Source of the DNA: Actinomycetota bacterium
GTDB lineage: Bacteria; Actinomycetota; CADDZG01; JAHWKV01; JAOPZY01
DNA: 64,000 bases
Direction of reading: 5' to 3'
Assembly: GCA_035765775.1 (NCBI GenBank)
Contig: DASTWV010000059.1
Coordinates: forward strand, 186,001 to 250,000
Both the position numbers and the translations under genes were made by a program. Under the pieces are notes generated by a model. It was not told the DNA's origin, searched no databases, and was given only the letters and a program-made list of their open reading frames with translations. Every line of letters begins with the position of its first letter. The first letter of the stretch is position 1. Of this stretch, positions 5,623 to 13,594 are shown piece by piece.

Positions 5623-6270
5623 ATGGCGGCCCTGGTCGTCACCATCTCATCCAGCTACGGGGCCGGCGGGAGCATCGTGGGCCCCCGGGTGGCCGAAGAG
5701 CTGGGACTGCCGTACTGGGACCGGGCGTGGGCACCCGAGGCGGTCGCCCGGGCGGGCGGTGAGGCAGCGCGGGAAGGCCTGAGCCTCGAGGAGCACGCCG
5801 ACGGAGTCCTGCGCCGGCTCTTCACGGCCGCCGCCCGGATGCCGGCGGCCGTGGGCGCGATCGCTCCCCCGCCCACGGCGCCCCTCAGTGACGAGGAGCG
5901 CTTCCGGGCCGCCAACGAGGCGGGGATCCTGGACCTCGTCCGCCGGGGGGGCGGGGTCATCCGCGGCCGGGGGGCGGCAGCGTTCCTCGGCAGGCAGCCC
6001 GGATGCCTGCATGTCCGCCTGGATGGCCCCGAAGCCACTAGGCTCGCCCTGGGGATGCGCATCGAGGGCATTGACGAGCAGGAGGCGCGCCGGCGCCTGG
6101 TGGCGACCGACCGCACCCGGGAGCAGTATGTCCGGCGCTTCTACAGCCGCGACGTGCACGACCCGGAGCTCTACGACCTGACCCTGGACACCGGCGAGAC
6201 CGACCTCGCGGCGTGCACCGGGATCATCGTGGAGGCCGCCCGGACGCACATGAACCGCCAGGCAACGTGA
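5623..6270 (+). CDS. Cytidylate kinase-like family protein
   Basis: A 215-residue P-loop protein begins MAALVVTISSSYGAGG; the SSYGAGG loop replaces the usual GxGKS, as in the cytidylate-kinase-like (Cytidylate_kin_2) family. Later segments IRGRGAAAFL, RMRIEG-type and YDLTLDTG are also typical. Members are found as stand-alone regulators or nucleotide kinases of unproven substrate; true Cmk activity should not be assumed. The stop overlaps the GTG start of moeA (GTGA), implying translational coupling. Confidence 0.8.
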   Translation: MAALVVTISSSYGAGGSIVGPRVAEELGLPYWDRAWAPEAVARAGGEAAREGLSLEEHADGVLRRLFTAAARMPAAVGAIAPPPTAPLSDEERFRAANEAGILDLVRRGGGVIRGRGAAAFLGRQPGCLHVRLDGPEATRLALGMRIEGIDEQEARRRLVATDRTREQYVRRFYSRDVHDPELYDLTLDTGETDLAACTGIIVEAARTHMNRQAT

Positions 6271-7487
6271 CCGTGCTCGTGCCGGCGCAGGAGCTGGTGG
6301 ACCGGATGCTGGCCACGGTCTCGCCACTGCTGCCGGTGGCGCTCCCCCTGCGCGCGGCCGCCGGACGGGTGGCCGCCGAGCCCGTCCGGGCCCCGTCCCG
6401 GCTCCCCCGCTTCACCAACTCGGCCATGGACGGCTTCGCAGTGCGGGCCAGCGACCTGCACGGCTCCGGCCCGGTCCGCCTGCGCATTGCCGGGCACGCC
6501 TGGGCGGGCGAGCCGTGGGGTGGGTCGGTCGGCGAGGGCCAAGCGGTCCAGATCGCCACCGGCGCGGCCCTGCCCCTGGGGGCCGACACCGTCATCCCGG
6601 TGGAAGCGGTCGCTGTCGAGGAGGGCTGGGTCGTGGTGCCCGCCGGTGCCCCGCCGGGCGCGCACGTGCGCCGGGCGGGCGAGGACGTGACCGAGCAGGA
6701 CGTCGTCGTGCCCGCGGGAGCCGTGCTGGGACCGGGCCAGGTGGCGGCGTGCGCCGCGCTGGGCATCCGTCACGTGGTCGTGCACCCGCCCGCCCGGGTG
6801 GCGATCGTCCCCACGGGCAGCGAGGTGCGCGCTGCCGGCGACGCGCTTGGCCCCGGAGACATCCACGACGCCGTGTCCCCCGCCCTGGCCATGCTGCTCG
6901 GCGAGATCGGCGCCTACGCCTGCCCCCACCCCCCCGTCCCGGACAGCGCCCCGGACATCATGGCCGCCCTCGGCCAGGCCGCCCTCGAATGCGACCTGCT
7001 GCTCACCATCGGGGGGGTGTCGGCGGGCGAGCGCGACCTGGTCCGCCGGCTGAACACCGTGGGCCACATCGATCCGTTCCAGGTGGCGCTCCGCCCCGCC
7101 AAGCCCTTCGCCTTCGGCAAGCTCTTCGACCGGCCCCTGGTGGGGCTGCCCGGGAACCCGGGGGCGGCGCTCATTGCCTTCGAGGTGCTCGCCCGGCCCG
7201 TCATCCTGCGCCTCCAGGGCCGCCCGGCGCTCCCCCGGCCCGCCGTCCGGGCGGTCCTCACCGAGCCCCTCGAAGGGTCGCCCGACCGGCTCCGGCTGGT
7301 CGCCGTCCAGGTCTGGCGGGACGGGCAGGGCGGGCTGCTCGCCCGGCCGGTGGCGCACCAGGGTGCCGGCATGGTGGCTGCGCTGGCGGCGGCCCAGGGT
7401 TGGGCCTACGTTGCACCCGGAGCCGGCTCCCGGCCGGCGGGCGACGAGATCGACGTGGCCCTGCTGACCGAGCCCGGCTGCCAGTAA
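6267..7487 (+). CDS. moeA: Molybdopterin molybdenumtransferase MoeA
   Basis: This 406-residue protein inserts molybdate into adenylylated molybdopterin to complete molybdenum cofactor. Seen are the N-terminal ...PRFTNSAMDGFAVRA segment, IATGAALPLGADTVIPVE, a central IVPTGSEVR and DLLLTIGGVSAGERD of the MoCF-binding domain, and LVGLPGNPGAALIAFE near the C-terminal domain. The GTG start at 6267 overlaps the stop of the previous gene; a second GTG at 6273 is possible. A molybdenum/bis-MGD formate dehydrogenase lies 1-6 kb downstream, a likely client. Confidence 0.95.
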   Translation: MTVLVPAQELVDRMLATVSPLLPVALPLRAAAGRVAAEPVRAPSRLPRFTNSAMDGFAVRASDLHGSGPVRLRIAGHAWAGEPWGGSVGEGQAVQIATGAALPLGADTVIPVEAVAVEEGWVVVPAGAPPGAHVRRAGEDVTEQDVVVPAGAVLGPGQVAACAALGIRHVVVHPPARVAIVPTGSEVRAAGDALGPGDIHDAVSPALAMLLGEIGAYACPHPPVPDSAPDIMAALGQAALECDLLLTIGGVSAGERDLVRRLNTVGHIDPFQVALRPAKPFAFGKLFDRPLVGLPGNPGAALIAFEVLARPVILRLQGRPALPRPAVRAVLTEPLEGSPDRLRLVAVQVWRDGQGGLLARPVAHQGAGMVAALAAAQGWAYVAPGAGSRPAGDEIDVALLTEPGCQ

Positions 7488-7521: not shown

Positions 7522-7560
7522 CTGTGTAGCAAGGTATGACTGGCTGAGGAGGTGACTGGT

Positions 7561-8079
7561 ATGGCAATTGCAGTGCGGCGGTTCTCCCCCTGGTCCAGCT
7601 TCAACGAGCTGCAGCGGGAGACCGACCAGTTGATGCGCAACGTCCTGGCAGGCGCAGGGATGTTCGGTGGGACCCCGGCCCTGGCGTCGGGCGGCCAGCA
7701 GTCGGGGGCCTGGATGCCGGCGGTGGACGTGCTCGCTCGGGACAAGGACATCGTGGTGCGGGCCGAACTGCCCGGCATCGACCCCTCCCGGGACGTCGAG
7801 ATCTCGGTGCACGACGGCGTGCTGACCGTGCGCGGCGAGCGCCGGCAGGAGGAACAGACCAAGGACGACCGCTACATGCGAGTCGAGCGCCGCTACGGAT
7901 CCTTCGAGCGCACCCTGGCCATCCCCGAGGGCGTGAACCCGGAGGGCATCCAGGCGTCGTACGACAACGGCGTGCTCGAGGTCACCATCCCGGGCGCGGC
8001 CCAGGAATCGGCGCCCCGGCGGATCCCGGTGCAGGTTGCCGCCACGGCCATGCCGGCGGCAGACGGGCACGAAGCGTAG
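7561..8079 (+). CDS. Hsp20/alpha-crystallin family small heat shock protein
   Basis: The 172-residue protein is an ATP-independent holdase chaperone. The alpha-crystallin domain runs from about residue 55 to 150: WMPAVDVLARDKDIVVRAELPG, then ISVHDGVLTVRGERR and the closing ASYDNGVLEVTIP. The short N-terminus has the usual FNELQRETDQLM helix. The ATG at 7561 is chosen because AGGAGG ends seven bases upstream; a GTG at 7552 lies directly on that site. It is followed by a hairpin and a marR gene on the same strand. Confidence 0.95.
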   Translation: MAIAVRRFSPWSSFNELQRETDQLMRNVLAGAGMFGGTPALASGGQQSGAWMPAVDVLARDKDIVVRAELPGIDPSRDVEISVHDGVLTVRGERRQEEQTKDDRYMRVERRYGSFERTLAIPEGVNPEGIQASYDNGVLEVTIPGAAQESAPRRIPVQVAATAMPAADGHEA

Positions 8080-8105
8080 GGTCGAGCGCAGTCCGGAAGG
8101 GAGGA

Positions 8106-8127
8106 CCCGCAGAGACCTCTCTGCGGG
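8106..8127 (+). terminator. Strong hairpin between hsp20 and marR
   Basis: CCCGCAGAG and CTCTGCGGG form a 9-bp perfect stem around the loop ACCT. There is no T-run, so it may pause or attenuate, or protect the hsp20 mRNA 3' end, rather than terminate fully. A second short palindrome (CCCTCGCGAGGG) follows at once. Confidence 0.5.
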
Positions 8128-8164
8128 TTCCCTCGCGAGGGGACCGAGGGGACCGAGGCCACTG

Positions 8165-8659
8165 ATGGCGGGACTGGAGAGCGAGGCGCGGCTGCTCGGG
8201 GCCTCCCTGGGACTGGCCGGGCACCTGGAGCACATTGCCCGCCACCTGGACCGGGTCCGGAGCCGCGCCCTCGCCCTGGAGGGGCTGACCCCGCGGGATG
8301 TCGAGGTGCTGAACGCCCTCGGGCGAGCCGGCCCCCCGTACCGCCTCTCGCAGGGGCAGCTGGCGCGCAGCGCCCAGCTCACATCGGGGGGCATGACCGG
8401 GCAGGCGGACCGCATGGAACTGGCCGGCTGGGTCACCCGGAGCCCCGATCCCGACGACCGCCGGGGGGTGCTGATCTGCCTCACCGAGGCGGGCCAGGCA
8501 GTGCTGCAACGCTCGCTCGGGACCTACCTCGGGGACGCCGACCGGGCGCTGGCGGTGCTGGATACCAGAGACCGGGCCGCGCTGGCCGTGCTGCTGGCCC
8601 GGGTGGTCTCCGGCCTCAGCGAGGAGCCGCCCCCCGGGAGCCGTCGCGGGGGCTCATAG
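8165..8659 (+). CDS. MarR-family transcriptional regulator
   Basis: A 164-residue winged-helix protein: an N-terminal dimerisation helix, then TPRDVEVLNAL, YRLSQGQLARSAQLTSGGMTGQADRMELAGWV (helix-turn-helix) and the wing SPDPDDRRGVLICLTEAG, whose D-x-R-R is the family hallmark. MarR proteins bind ~20-bp palindromes and usually regulate themselves; the palindrome over the hsp20 promoter fits. The 3' end overlaps that of the convergent NrfD-type gene by 44 bp. Confidence 0.9.
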   Translation: MAGLESEARLLGASLGLAGHLEHIARHLDRVRSRALALEGLTPRDVEVLNALGRAGPPYRLSQGQLARSAQLTSGGMTGQADRMELAGWVTRSPDPDDRRGVLICLTEAGQAVLQRSLGTYLGDADRALAVLDTRDRAALAVLLARVVSGLSEEPPPGSRRGGS

Positions 8660-9581
8660 CGGGTCGGCCTCCGTCACCGCCCGCCGCCGCACTCGCCATG
8701 CGTCGGCGCTGCGGGCCGACAGTCGCCTCGGGGTCCCGGGCCGACGCCCGGCCCGCCTCCACCACGGCGAAGCGCTCCAGCGCCGCCCCGGTGGCAACGG
8801 CCACCGCCCCCAGCTTCTCAAACGAACCGGTCACCACCGCGGCGGCCCCGGCGACGGTGCAGGCCGTGGAGGCCCGGCCCAGAGCCCCGGCCCGCCCCTC
8901 GTGGTAGGCCCGGGCCACGTCGGGCTCCAGCCGCCGGCGGAGCCGCTGGGCGGACAGGATCTCGGCGACCGCACCCCCGAGCAGGAGGCGGCGGGCGGCC
9001 CCCGCGTCCTGCGCCGGGGCCAGGAACACCCCCAACGCGCCCGCACTCGCCGCCGCCCCGGCGGCGAAGAGCAGCGGCAGGTCGTCGCCCGCCGCCTGCC
9101 ACGCCGGCACCGCGGTATCGGCGAGAAGCACCGCCGTGTAGGTGGCCACCGCCGGGCCGAGGCATGCCGCCGCGCCATCGGCCAGAGCACCGGCCGCCGG
9201 CAGGGCGAGGGAGTCGGCCGCGACGCCCACCCCGAGCGCAGCGCCGAAGGCGGACAGGATCCAGGACCCCACGTTCATCGGCGAGGTGGGCTTGAAGACC
9301 CGCAGCATGTTGGCGAAGCGGCTGGGGCGGCCGAGGTCCCGGATGAGGAACCCGGTGCTCAGTCCGAGCGCGCCCAGCGCCACCAGGCGGCTCTGCCGGG
9401 CCAGCCGCCGGTTCCGGGTGAGCCGGCTGCCGGCCGCCAGGAGCGCCGATCCGCCGGCCAGGCCGCCGGTGAACAGGTAGGCCGGGATGGGCCACTTCCA
9501 CACCGGCTCCTTCAGGATCGGGCGCCCGTAGTAGCTCTCCGGGGTGGCCCGGGGCACCATCGGCTGCTCGCGGGGCGGCAT
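8616..9581 (-). CDS. NrfD/PsrC-type membrane subunit of formate dehydrogenase
   Basis: This 321-residue membrane protein starts with a polar segment and WPIPAYLFTGGLAGGSALLA, the family signature around the first helix, followed by about eight hydrophobic helices and LGLSTGFLIRDLGRPSRF. NrfD-type subunits anchor iron-sulfur/molybdopterin oxidoreductases and pass electrons to quinone. The gene lies 3 bp after the 4Fe-4S subunit and replaces the cytochrome b556 subunit of the E. coli enzyme. The C-terminal ~40 residues are polar and may be run-on. Confidence 0.85.
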   Translation of the reverse strand: MPPREQPMVPRATPESYYGRPILKEPVWKWPIPAYLFTGGLAGGSALLAAGSRLTRNRRLARQSRLVALGALGLSTGFLIRDLGRPSRFANMLRVFKPTSPMNVGSWILSAFGAALGVGVAADSLALPAAGALADGAAACLGPAVATYTAVLLADTAVPAWQAAGDDLPLLFAAGAAASAGALGVFLAPAQDAGAARRLLLGGAVAEILSAQRLRRRLEPDVARAYHEGRAGALGRASTACTVAGAAAVVTGSFEKLGAVAVATGAALERFAVVEAGRASARDPEATVGPQRRRMASAAAGGDGGRPAMSPRDGSRGAAPR

Positions 9582-9584
9582 GGG

Positions 9585-10376
9585 CTACGAGCGAACGAAC
9601 GCCGCCAGGGCGCCCGCCGCCAGGGCGCCCGCGGCCAGGGCGGCCCGGCGCCACATCCGGGGCAGCTCGGCGGGCCGAGGATCGGGGGGCAGGCCGTAGA
9701 CCTCGGGACGGTCGAGCAGCAGGAAGAAGGCTCCGAAGCCACCGACCCCGTCGGCCGGATCCGCGCCGTAGAGCTGTGCCCCCTCCTCCCCCGCCTCGTG
9801 CAGCGTCTGCAGCCGACCCTCGGCCCGCCGGCGCAGTTCCAGCAGGGGGCCGAACTGGATCGATTCGGTGGGGCAGGCCTGGGCGCACGCGGGCTGCAGG
9901 CCACCGTGGAGCCGGTCGTAGCACAAGGTGCACTTGAAGACCCGCCCGTCCTCCGGGCGTTGGTCGATGACCCCGAAGGGGCACGCCGGCACGCAGTAGC
10001 CGCACCCGTTGCACACGTCCTCCTGCACCACCACCGTCCCGAACTCCGTACGGATCAGGGCGCCGGTGGGGCACACCTCCAGGCAGGCGGCGGACGTGCA
10101 GTGCTTGCAGACATCCGAGCTCATCAGCCAACGCAGGCCCTGTTCGGACTGCTCGATGAAGGCCACATGGCGCCACGTGCTGGCGCCCAGGCCGCCGGTG
10201 TTGTCGTAGGAGGTGCCCAGGAAGGCGAGGCCGTCCTCGGGAACCCCGTTCCACTCCTTGCACGCCACCTCGCACGCTTTGCAGCCGATGCAGACGCTGG
10301 TGTCGGTGAAGAAGCCCACCCGCTCCGGCCCGGGTTCCCACCCGGCCCGGGCGGCCGGATCCGAGAGCCGCGTCAC
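9585..10376 (-). CDS. fdhB: Formate dehydrogenase beta subunit (four 4Fe-4S clusters)
   Basis: This 263-residue protein carries four cysteine groups: CIGCKACEVAC (C29, C32, C35, C39), CKHCTSAACLEVCP, CNGCGYCVPACP and a split group CTLC...CAQACP. These bind four [4Fe-4S] clusters that conduct electrons from the molybdenum site to the membrane subunit. A hydrophobic C-terminal helix (residues ~245-260) may touch the membrane. The GTG at 10376 overlaps the stop of the catalytic subunit (GTGA), so the subunits are translationally coupled. The open frame upstream of it is a shadow. Confidence 0.92.
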   Translation of the reverse strand: MTRLSDPAARAGWEPGPERVGFFTDTSVCIGCKACEVACKEWNGVPEDGLAFLGTSYDNTGGLGASTWRHVAFIEQSEQGLRWLMSSDVCKHCTSAACLEVCPTGALIRTEFGTVVVQEDVCNGCGYCVPACPFGVIDQRPEDGRVFKCTLCYDRLHGGLQPACAQACPTESIQFGPLLELRRRAEGRLQTLHEAGEEGAQLYGADPADGVGGFGAFFLLLDRPEVYGLPPDPRPAELPRMWRRAALAAGALAAGALAAFVRS

Positions 10377-13300
10377 CGGGCGCCTCGTAGATCGGCGGGC
10401 AGGCCGGCCCGCTCCCGGTAGCTGGCCACGAGGCGGCTGACCGCCGGCCCCCGGGGCCGGCGCCCGGGCCGGATGTCGCAGGTGGCTGCCTTGACCTCCT
10501 GGATGTGCACGTTGGGGTCCAGCACGATCGACGCCAGGTCGTTGGCCCCATCGCCGGTCACCAGGCCCTGGCTCCCCCAGTGGTAGGGCAGGCCCACCTG
10601 GTGGATCCGCTGGCCCTGCACCTGCAGCGGGGCCATCCGGTCGGTCACCAGGACCCGGGCCTCGATGGCCGCCCGGGGCGTGACGATCGTGGCCCACCCA
10701 CCGTGGGTGAGGCCGCGTTCAGCGGCTAGCTCGGGGTGGACCTCGCAGAACATCTCGGGCTGCAGCTCGGACAGCACGTGCAGGGTGCGCGACATCGCGC
10801 CCGCGGTGTGGTGCTCGGTCAGCCGGTAGGTGGTGAACACGTAGGGGAAGACCCCGGCCCCGGGCTCCGAGGCGTACCGGTTGCCCTCCCGGTCGAAGCG
10901 CTGCCGGGCGGGGTTGGACTGCTGGCGGTACAGGGTGTTGCGGAAGGGCGACTCCTCGGGCTCGTAGTGCACCGGCAGCGGGCCGTCCTTCAGCCCGTGG
11001 GGCACGAAGAGCCACCCGAGGCCATCGGACTGCATGACGAACGGGTCAGTGCCCCGCAGGGCGTGCTCCGCCCGGGCTCCGGGCGGCGGCTGGTAGTCCG
11101 GAGCCATGGTCTTGGTGCAGTCGGCGGCGTCGTGGCCGGTCCACTCGCCCTTGGCCGCGTCCCACCAGACGTAGGCCTTGCGCTCCGACCACGGCTCACC
11201 ACCCGGGGTGGCCGACGCCCGGTTGTAGAGCAGGCGGCGGTTGGCGGGCCAGGCCCAGCCCCATTCGGGCGCCACCCAGCTCTGGCGGTCGCCGGGTGTC
11301 CGCCGGGCGGTCTGGTTCTCCTCGCCGGCGTAGCAGCCGCAGTAGATCCAGCAGCCGCACACCGTGGAGCCGTCGGCCTTCAGCTGCGTGTAGGTGTCCA
11401 GCGCATGCCCAGCACCGTCCCACCCGTTGATCTCACGCAGGACCGCCCCGGCGCCGGGATCCTCGTGCGGCCCGCTCACCGGATAGTCCCAGGTGAGCTC
11501 CAGCACGGGCCGGTCCCGCGCGTCGCCCGAGGCGGCCAGCTTCTGCCGCACGATGCGCCCGAGGTGGTAGTAGAACCACAGGTCGGAGCGGGCATCGCCG
11601 GGCGGCTCGACCGCCTTGTGGCGCCACTGCAGCAGGCGCTGGGTGTTGGTGAACGTGCCCTCCTTCTCGGTGTGCGCCGCCGCCGGCATCAAGAACACCT
11701 CGGTGCCGATCTCCCCGGTGCGCAGCTCCTCCGACTCGATCTCCGGGCTGTCGTACCAGAACGAGGCGGTCTCGATCTCGGCGAAGTCCCGCACCACCAG
11801 CCAGTCGAGGTTGGCCAGCGCCCGCCGGTGCAGGCTGCCGTTGGCCGAGCCGACCGCCGGGTTCTCCCCGATGACGAAGAACCCTTTGACGGTCCCGTCC
11901 AGCATCCCGAGGATGCTCTGGTAGCTGGAATGGTCACCGTTGATGCGGGGCAGGTAGTCGAAGCAGTAGTCGTTCGCCGCCGTGGCGGCCGGCCCCCACC
12001 AGGCCTTGAGCAGGCTGGTCACGTAGGCGTCCATGTGGCCCCAGTAGCCGTTCTCGGCGCCGTCCCGGGCGATGAACTCCCCCAAGCTGGAATGCGTGTG
12101 GGCGTGCGGCATCGGGATGTAGCCGGGCAGCAGGTTGTACAGCGTCGGGATGTCCGTGGACCCCTGGATGCTGGCGTGGCCCCGCAGGGCCATGATCCCC
12201 CCGCCCGGGCGGCCGATGTTGCCCAGCAGGAGCTGGATGATGGCCGCCGTGCGGATGTACTGCACGCCGACGCTGTGCTGGGTCCAGCCCACGGAGTAGA
12301 CGAAGGCGGACGTCCGCTCGGGCCCGGAGTTGGCGCACAGGGCCTCGGCCACCCGTAGGAACACCGGCTGCGGCACCCCGCACAGCTCCTCGACCACCGC
12401 GGGCGTATAGCGTGCGAAATGTCTCTTCAGGATCTGGAACACGCAGCGGGGGTGCTGCAGCGTCGGGTCGGTGTGGGCGGCGTGCCCGGTACCCGCCTCC
12501 CCGTGGCCCCCGAACTCGCCGCCCGCCGCCGACCCCGCCTGCTCCCGTTGGCCGGCGGAGGACTGGACCCGGGTCCCCTCGTAGGTCCAGCTCGCCTGGT
12601 CGTAGGTGCCGGATTCGGGGTCGAAGCCCGAGAACAGGCCGTCGAGGTCCTCGGTGTCGGCGAATTCCGGGCTCACAATTGCCGAGGCGTTGGTATAGGC
12701 CTTGACGTAGTCGGAGAACTCCCGGCCGTTCGCCAGGATGTAGTGCACGATGCCCCCCAGGAAGGCGATATCGGACCCGGCGCGGAGTGGGACGTGCAGG
12801 TCGGCCACCGCGCTCGTGCGGGTGAACCGGGGGTCGACGTGGATCACCGTCGCTCCACGGGATTTCGCCTCCATCACCCACTGGAAGCCCACGGGGTGGC
12901 ACTCGGCCATGTTGGAGCCCTGGATGACGATGCAGTCGGCATTCGCCAGATCCTGCTGAAAGGTCGTGGCGCCGCCCCGGCCGAACGAGGTCCCCAAACT
13001 GGGGACAGTGCTGGAGTGTCAAATCCGGGCTTGATTCTCGATCTGCACCGCTCCCAGCGCGGTATAGAGCTTTTTCATGAGGTAGTTCTCCTCGATGTCG
13101 AGGGTGGCGCCCCCGAGGCTGGCCACGCCCATGGTCCGGCGCAGCGTGCGGCCCTGGCCGTCGACGTCCTCCCAACCCTCCCGCCGGGTGGCCAGCAGGC
13201 GGTCGGCGATCATGTCCATCGCCTGGCTGAGGGGGATCTCCTCCCAGCGGGTGCCGTAGGGCCGGCGGTACCGCACGGTCCGGAGCCGGCCGGGCCGGGT

Positions 13301-13594
13301 CACCAGCTCCTTGCTGGCGGCGCCCTTCGGGCACAGCCGGCCCCGGGATATCGGGCTGTCGGGATCACCCTCGATCTGGACGACCTTTCCGTCCTTCACG
13401 AAGATCCGTTGCCCGCAGCCCACCGCGCAGTACGGGCACACCGATTGGACCACCTCGGCCGCCTCGGTCCGGGGACGCAGGCCACGGGTTCGATCGGAGA
13501 TCGCCGCCTCCCCCAAGCCCCAACGGTCCTTCCCGACCAGTTGGCGGAGTGCAGGCCAGCGCGCCAAGCGCGCCCCCGGGAAGCGGGAATCCAT
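10373..13594 (-). CDS. fdhA: Selenocysteine-containing formate dehydrogenase, catalytic (alpha) subunit
   Basis: Read through the in-frame TGA at 13019-13021 this is one 1073-residue protein; without readthrough it would look like two genes. Sec192 lies in NQARI-Sec-HSSTVPSLGTSFGRGG, the exact active-site context of selenocysteine formate dehydrogenases (Sec followed by His). N-terminal cysteines C53, C56, C60 and C88 bind a [4Fe-4S] cluster; ADCIVIQGSNMAECHPVGF and the C-terminal molydopterin-dinucleotide domain follow. It oxidises formate at a Mo/W bis-MGD centre. The start at 13594 gives MDSRFPGARL; I see no twin-arginine signal, unlike E. coli FdnG, so the active site probably faces the cytoplasm. 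An extension to 14104 is open but would overlap csbD. Sec insertion needs selA, selB, selC and selD elsewhere. Confidence 0.93.
12980..13021 (-). promoter_or_regulatory. UGA(Sec) codon and bacterial SECIS hairpin
   Basis: On the minus strand the TGA at 13021-13019 is followed 12 bases later by GTCCCC-AGTTT-GGGGAC (13006-12990), a perfect 6-bp stem with a 5-base loop. Bacterial SECIS elements are coding hairpins at this distance after the UGA, recognised by SelB. The sequence also encodes the conserved TVPSLGT, so it serves both as code and structure. Confidence 0.8.

Follow-up and report, generated by a model that had tools for sequence, protein, structure and literature searches.

We analysed a 64-kb stretch of actinobacterial DNA (the window) that carries on its minus strand the genes of a formate dehydrogenase, with the following features:

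8616 to 9581, minus strand: fdhC, NrfD/PsrC-type membrane subunit of 321 aa (PF03916, 49.6 bits against a cut-off of 25.8)
9585 to 10376, minus strand: fdhB, 4Fe-4S beta subunit of 263 aa (matches to TIGR01582 and PF13247)
10373 to 13594, minus strand: fdhA, selenocysteine (Sec) formate dehydrogenase alpha subunit, identified by its profile matches
12990 to 13006, minus strand: SECIS-like hairpin GTCCCC-AGTTT-GGGGAC, with compensatory change at two synonymous-site pairs
13019 to 13021, minus strand: in-frame TGA read as selenocysteine (U192) at the position of the active-site Mo/W ligand, from the codon of the relatives and the alignment with 1h0h

The GTG start of fdhB overlaps the stop codon of fdhA as GTGA (10373-10376) and fdhC begins 3 bases past fdhB (end of fdhB at 9585, start of fdhC at 9581); the three genes are thus one run, an operon. 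In a mechanical search fdhA appears as two open reading frames of the minus strand, 14104-13019 and 12997-10373, which are parts of one frame with the TGA at 13021-13019 as their sole separator (the plus strand reads TCA at these positions). When this codon is read as Sec, the frame runs from the ATG at 13594 down to 10373 and yields 1073 residues with one internal TGA, at residue 192; the terminal stop at 10375-10373 is also a TGA. The preliminary description of this DNA had joined both frames into one gene and had placed the TGA inside NQARI-U-HSSTVPSLG, the fixed active-site context, and it is there that we located the codon (ENQARI-U-HSSTVPSLGTSFGRGG).

FdhA scored 1898 bits against the NCBIfam model NF041513 (formate_DH_Act, actinobacterial formate dehydrogenase; cut-off 1400) in a full-length match, residues 10-1062 covering positions 3-1067 of the 1067 in the profile, and 942 bits against TIGR01553, the model for the alpha subunit of FdnGHI-type formate dehydrogenase-N, above its cut-off of 814. 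The three expected molybdopterin oxidoreductase domains (PF04879, PF00384 and PF01568) are all present, and in an alignment with the Desulfovibrio gigas formate dehydrogenase 1h0h, residue 192 falls on the modified residue of the active site. When the gene was compared with four homologues, dN/dS was ~0.22-0.29 upstream of the TGA and ~0.28-0.39 downstream, values that show purifying selection on both parts. The single-frame readthrough, the match to NF041513 from end to end and the selection that persists past the TGA bear out the earlier statements that the two frames are one gene and that homology is unbroken on both sides of the stop. fdhA is one Sec-coded gene of the NF041513 family; the earlier observation was real and correctly read, yet ordinary, as it describes the normal state of a common and known family. 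The accompanying expectation that an annotator would report two genes or a pseudogene no longer holds, since RefSeq calls the copies of this gene on an Arthrobacter and a Tsukamurella plasmid as a single CDS across the TGA.

Next, we aligned the 80 nearest FdhA relatives from named genomes and recorded the codon matching U192, which is TGA in 68 of them, TAG in 12 and a sense codon in none. Because all 80 have TGA or TAG exactly at this place, a chance in-frame stop is excluded; both this comparison and the aligned modified residue of 1h0h agree with the Sec position that had been proposed. A single stop dividing two open frames is also what would be seen if the TGA were a sequencing error, or a true nonsense mutation in a Cys-type enzyme that left a pseudogene or two genes. 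This explanation is nonetheless extremely improbable in view of the stop in 80/80 nearest relatives, the purifying selection that continues past it, the hairpin kept by compensatory change on its 3' side and the full Sec machinery of the genome, the last two of which are described below.

All the TAG-type fdhA genes belong to the Geodermatophilaceae, and the tRNA-Sec has the anticodon CUA in the 4/4 genomes with a TAG-type fdhA that were tested, a combination of tRNA-Sec(CUA) and TAG that was already reported for this family (PMC5330540). Geodermatophilus sp. LHW52908 (G399; L136, L143) has tRNA-Sec genes with both the UCA (81.8 bits) and the CUA (65.3 bits) anticodon, and its fdhA uses TAG. 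On the FdhA tree, the TAG-coded fdhA of Geodermatophilus sp. TF02-6 (L092) does not group with the Geodermatophilaceae clade but branches close to TGA genes, and on this placement we counted a second change from TGA to TAG; it is possibly an acquired gene that was re-coded to suit the resident CUA tRNA-Sec. Two further homologues (L119 and L120) have a Cys codon, TGC, and neither selA nor a tRNA-Sec was detected in their genomes.

Readthrough alone does not identify the inserted residue, and the TGA could be read as an amino acid other than Sec, either by suppression or by reassignment (e.g., to Trp). We assign this reading a negligible probability: the terminal stop of fdhA, being itself TGA, argues against a general reassignment, residue 192 matches, in a solved formate dehydrogenase structure, the residue of the active site that is modified, Cys takes the position in two relatives whose genomes show no detected Sec machinery, and the anticodon of the tRNA-Sec shifts along with the codon in the Geodermatophilaceae.

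We then studied the hairpin at 13006-12990, whose first stem base is 13 nt downstream of the TGA. Its folding energy compared with that of shuffled sequences (z of -0.28) is ordinary for such a GC-rich stretch and not distinctive, so that the evidence for the hairpin rests on covariation. Across 70 distinct homologous stretches, the six stem pairs are retained in 99-100%. Two of them join synonymous third positions (Val3-Gly3 and Pro3-Leu3), and the mutual information of these two predicted pairs, 0.727 and 0.371, is the highest of all 91 third-position pairs, the next value being 0.218; none of 5000 shuffles reached that of either pair. When the changes were mapped on a tree built from 111 FdhA proteins, both sides of one stem pair changed on the same branch 11 times (out of 15 and 18 changes in total), and those of the other did so 4/4 times. 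Neither of the two Cys homologues retains the stem. The comparison with relatives that the preliminary description had called for at the hairpin thus revealed kept pairs, compensatory changes and loss in the Cys homologues, and the hairpin looks as a selected bacterial SECIS element does. Covariation of this kind, at synonymous sites and throughout the family, provides a clear example of selection on a bacterial SECIS among high-GC actinobacteria.

To place the gene in its genome, a draft assembly of 3.6 Mb in 62 contigs (95.8% complete, 1.23% contamination), we searched for the Sec machinery. ARAGORN found no tRNA in the 64-kb window and an Rfam search of it gave no matches; the Sec genes sit on other contigs. 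selA and selB are adjacent on contig C44 (18 kb), selD is on contig C32 and is itself Sec-coded (YSHGAG-U-ACKLGP), and two tRNA-Sec genes, both with the anticodon UCA and different at 3 positions, are on contigs C55 (L001) and C30 (L002). All four predicted genes, selA, selB, selC and selD, were therefore found, plus fdhD on contig C9. The surroundings of the two tRNA-Sec genes are unrelated to each other. At the end of contig C37 (L146, 3045 bases), beside transposase-like ORFs, lies a 3' fragment of another selA, a divergent copy that is 33-37% identical to the SelA encoded on C44.

Given a draft assembly with selA/selB on an 18-kb contig, a binning error is possible, and fdhA might be Sec-coded in an organism that no longer makes Sec, the contigs with selA/selB or tRNA-Sec being contaminants. 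The number of contigs and the estimated contamination would allow for this, as would the small size of the contigs that hold selAB, the second tRNA-Sec (8 kb) and the stray selA fragment (3 kb). We consider it very unlikely, since one tRNA-Sec and selD are on larger contigs, of 209 kb and 103 kb, respectively, the composition of C44 agrees with that of the window, and the hairpin and the frame are intact where decay would be expected without Sec. Moreover, identity to the counterparts in a genome of the same family (G007) is 72% for SelA and 70% for SelB, compared with 61% and 53% for a genome of the same order, so that both fit the host lineage; the FdhA of that same-family genome is 75% identical to the one in the window.

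At the level of the phylum, a homologue was present in 124 of the 397 sampled genomes, mostly with an in-frame TGA, and selA scored above its cut-off in 226 of the 397. The Sec trait is then patchy in actinobacteria, as had been noted, but it is not rare. selA was found in 44 of the 49 genomes with a closer, TGA-coded homologue versus 185 of the 348 others (Fisher p ~3e-7, for a set of 49 hand-picked from the table of 397 and with kinship left uncorrected).

The other subunits and the N-terminus of FdhA agree with the account of an NrfD-type membrane subunit and an alpha subunit devoid of a Tat signal. FdhB scored 197 bits against TIGR01582, below the curated cut-off for formate dehydrogenase beta subunits (334.7), and the N-terminus of FdhA, MDSRFPGARLARWPALRQ, has no twin-arginine signal; the twin-arginine pattern was found in 0/80 relatives. 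These features are not special to this DNA: the family is already known through the curated NCBI model, and the fdhA-fdhB-nrfD operon without Tat is usual for it. In 17 of the 80 relatives' loci, some of them with incomplete flanks, there was no NrfD relative inside the flanks taken. The E. coli alpha subunit FdnG carries a Tat signal, and its membrane partner FdnI is a cytochrome b. FdnGHI (1kqf) likewise combines a Sec alpha with a 4Fe-4S beta subunit, and FdhA scores 708 bits to FdnG; the enzyme of the window differs from it in having an NrfD membrane subunit (PF03916) in place of an FdnI-type cytochrome b, as well as in its alpha subunit without a Tat signal. The Desulfovibrio FdhAB enzymes are periplasmic and soluble, without an NrfD anchor. 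Their structures (1h0h and 6sdr) are among the best solved-structure matches to FdhA, with the Sec position aligned in 1h0h.

Closer systems are found in the actinobacteria. Plasmid pYA7-1a of Arthrobacter sp. YA7-1 and plasmid 17 of Tsukamurella tyrosinosolvens both encode, like the window, a full-length alpha subunit with the Sec codon in NQARI-U-HS(S/A)TVP(S/G)LG, and share with it the 3' hairpin, the 4Fe-4S subunit, the NrfD/PsrC anchor and the lack of Tat. In the two plasmids selD, selA and selB come directly after the fdh genes, whereas in the genome of the window selA/selB, selD and selC are on other contigs. From its published description, FDH1 of Actinomycetospora chiangmaiensis DSM 45062 is also an actinobacterial membrane-bound Sec formate dehydrogenase, although its cluster has selA and selB alongside, unlike the window; formate removal by this organism was selenium-dependent in culture, and the authors found a bSECIS (PMC7176365). 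Corynebacterium aurimucosum was likewise described as having a Sec formate dehydrogenase along with selABD and selC (PMC2830990). A literature search for NrfD together with an actinobacterial Sec formate dehydrogenase returned no paper.

Taken together, these results indicate that fdhA almost certainly encodes the alpha subunit of a membrane-bound actinobacterial Sec formate dehydrogenase, with Sec predicted to be inserted at UGA192; no observation of weight speaks against this. From what is known of the family, SelD, SelA and tRNA-Sec(UCA) would produce Sec-tRNA, and SelB would bind the hairpin just 3' of UGA192 and deliver Sec there, so that translation could continue to 1073 residues. With Sec192 as a ligand of the Mo/W in the bis-pterin cofactor, the enzyme would oxidize formate to CO2, presumably in a catalytic head on the cytoplasmic side; the Fe-S clusters of the alpha and beta subunits would carry the electrons to FdhC, the NrfD-type subunit, and to the quinone pool. 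The lack of a Tat signal and the NrfD anchor permit the reading of a cytoplasm-facing head. A further proposal, that the complex is a formate:quinone oxidoreductase with such a head held by NrfD, and that its coupling or direction (CO2 reduction included) differs in kind from that of E. coli FdnGHI throughout the family, we regard as speculative and rather unlikely; if true, it would mean a different energy coupling from FdnGHI for the whole actinobacterial family.

For an actinobacterial order that has been little sampled (8 genomes), these findings contribute one selenoprotein with good support, along with a complete set of genes for Sec decoding, and they leave the knowledge of selenoproteins in general unchanged. 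Among the relatives, one from an Actinomadura and one from a Streptomyces (L034 and L082) have selD, selB and selA convergent directly after fdhA. Finally, on the opposite strand beside the operon, the window contains genes for a MoeA-like molybdopterin enzyme (6213-7487), an Hsp20 (7552-8079) and a MarR-type regulator (8036-8659).
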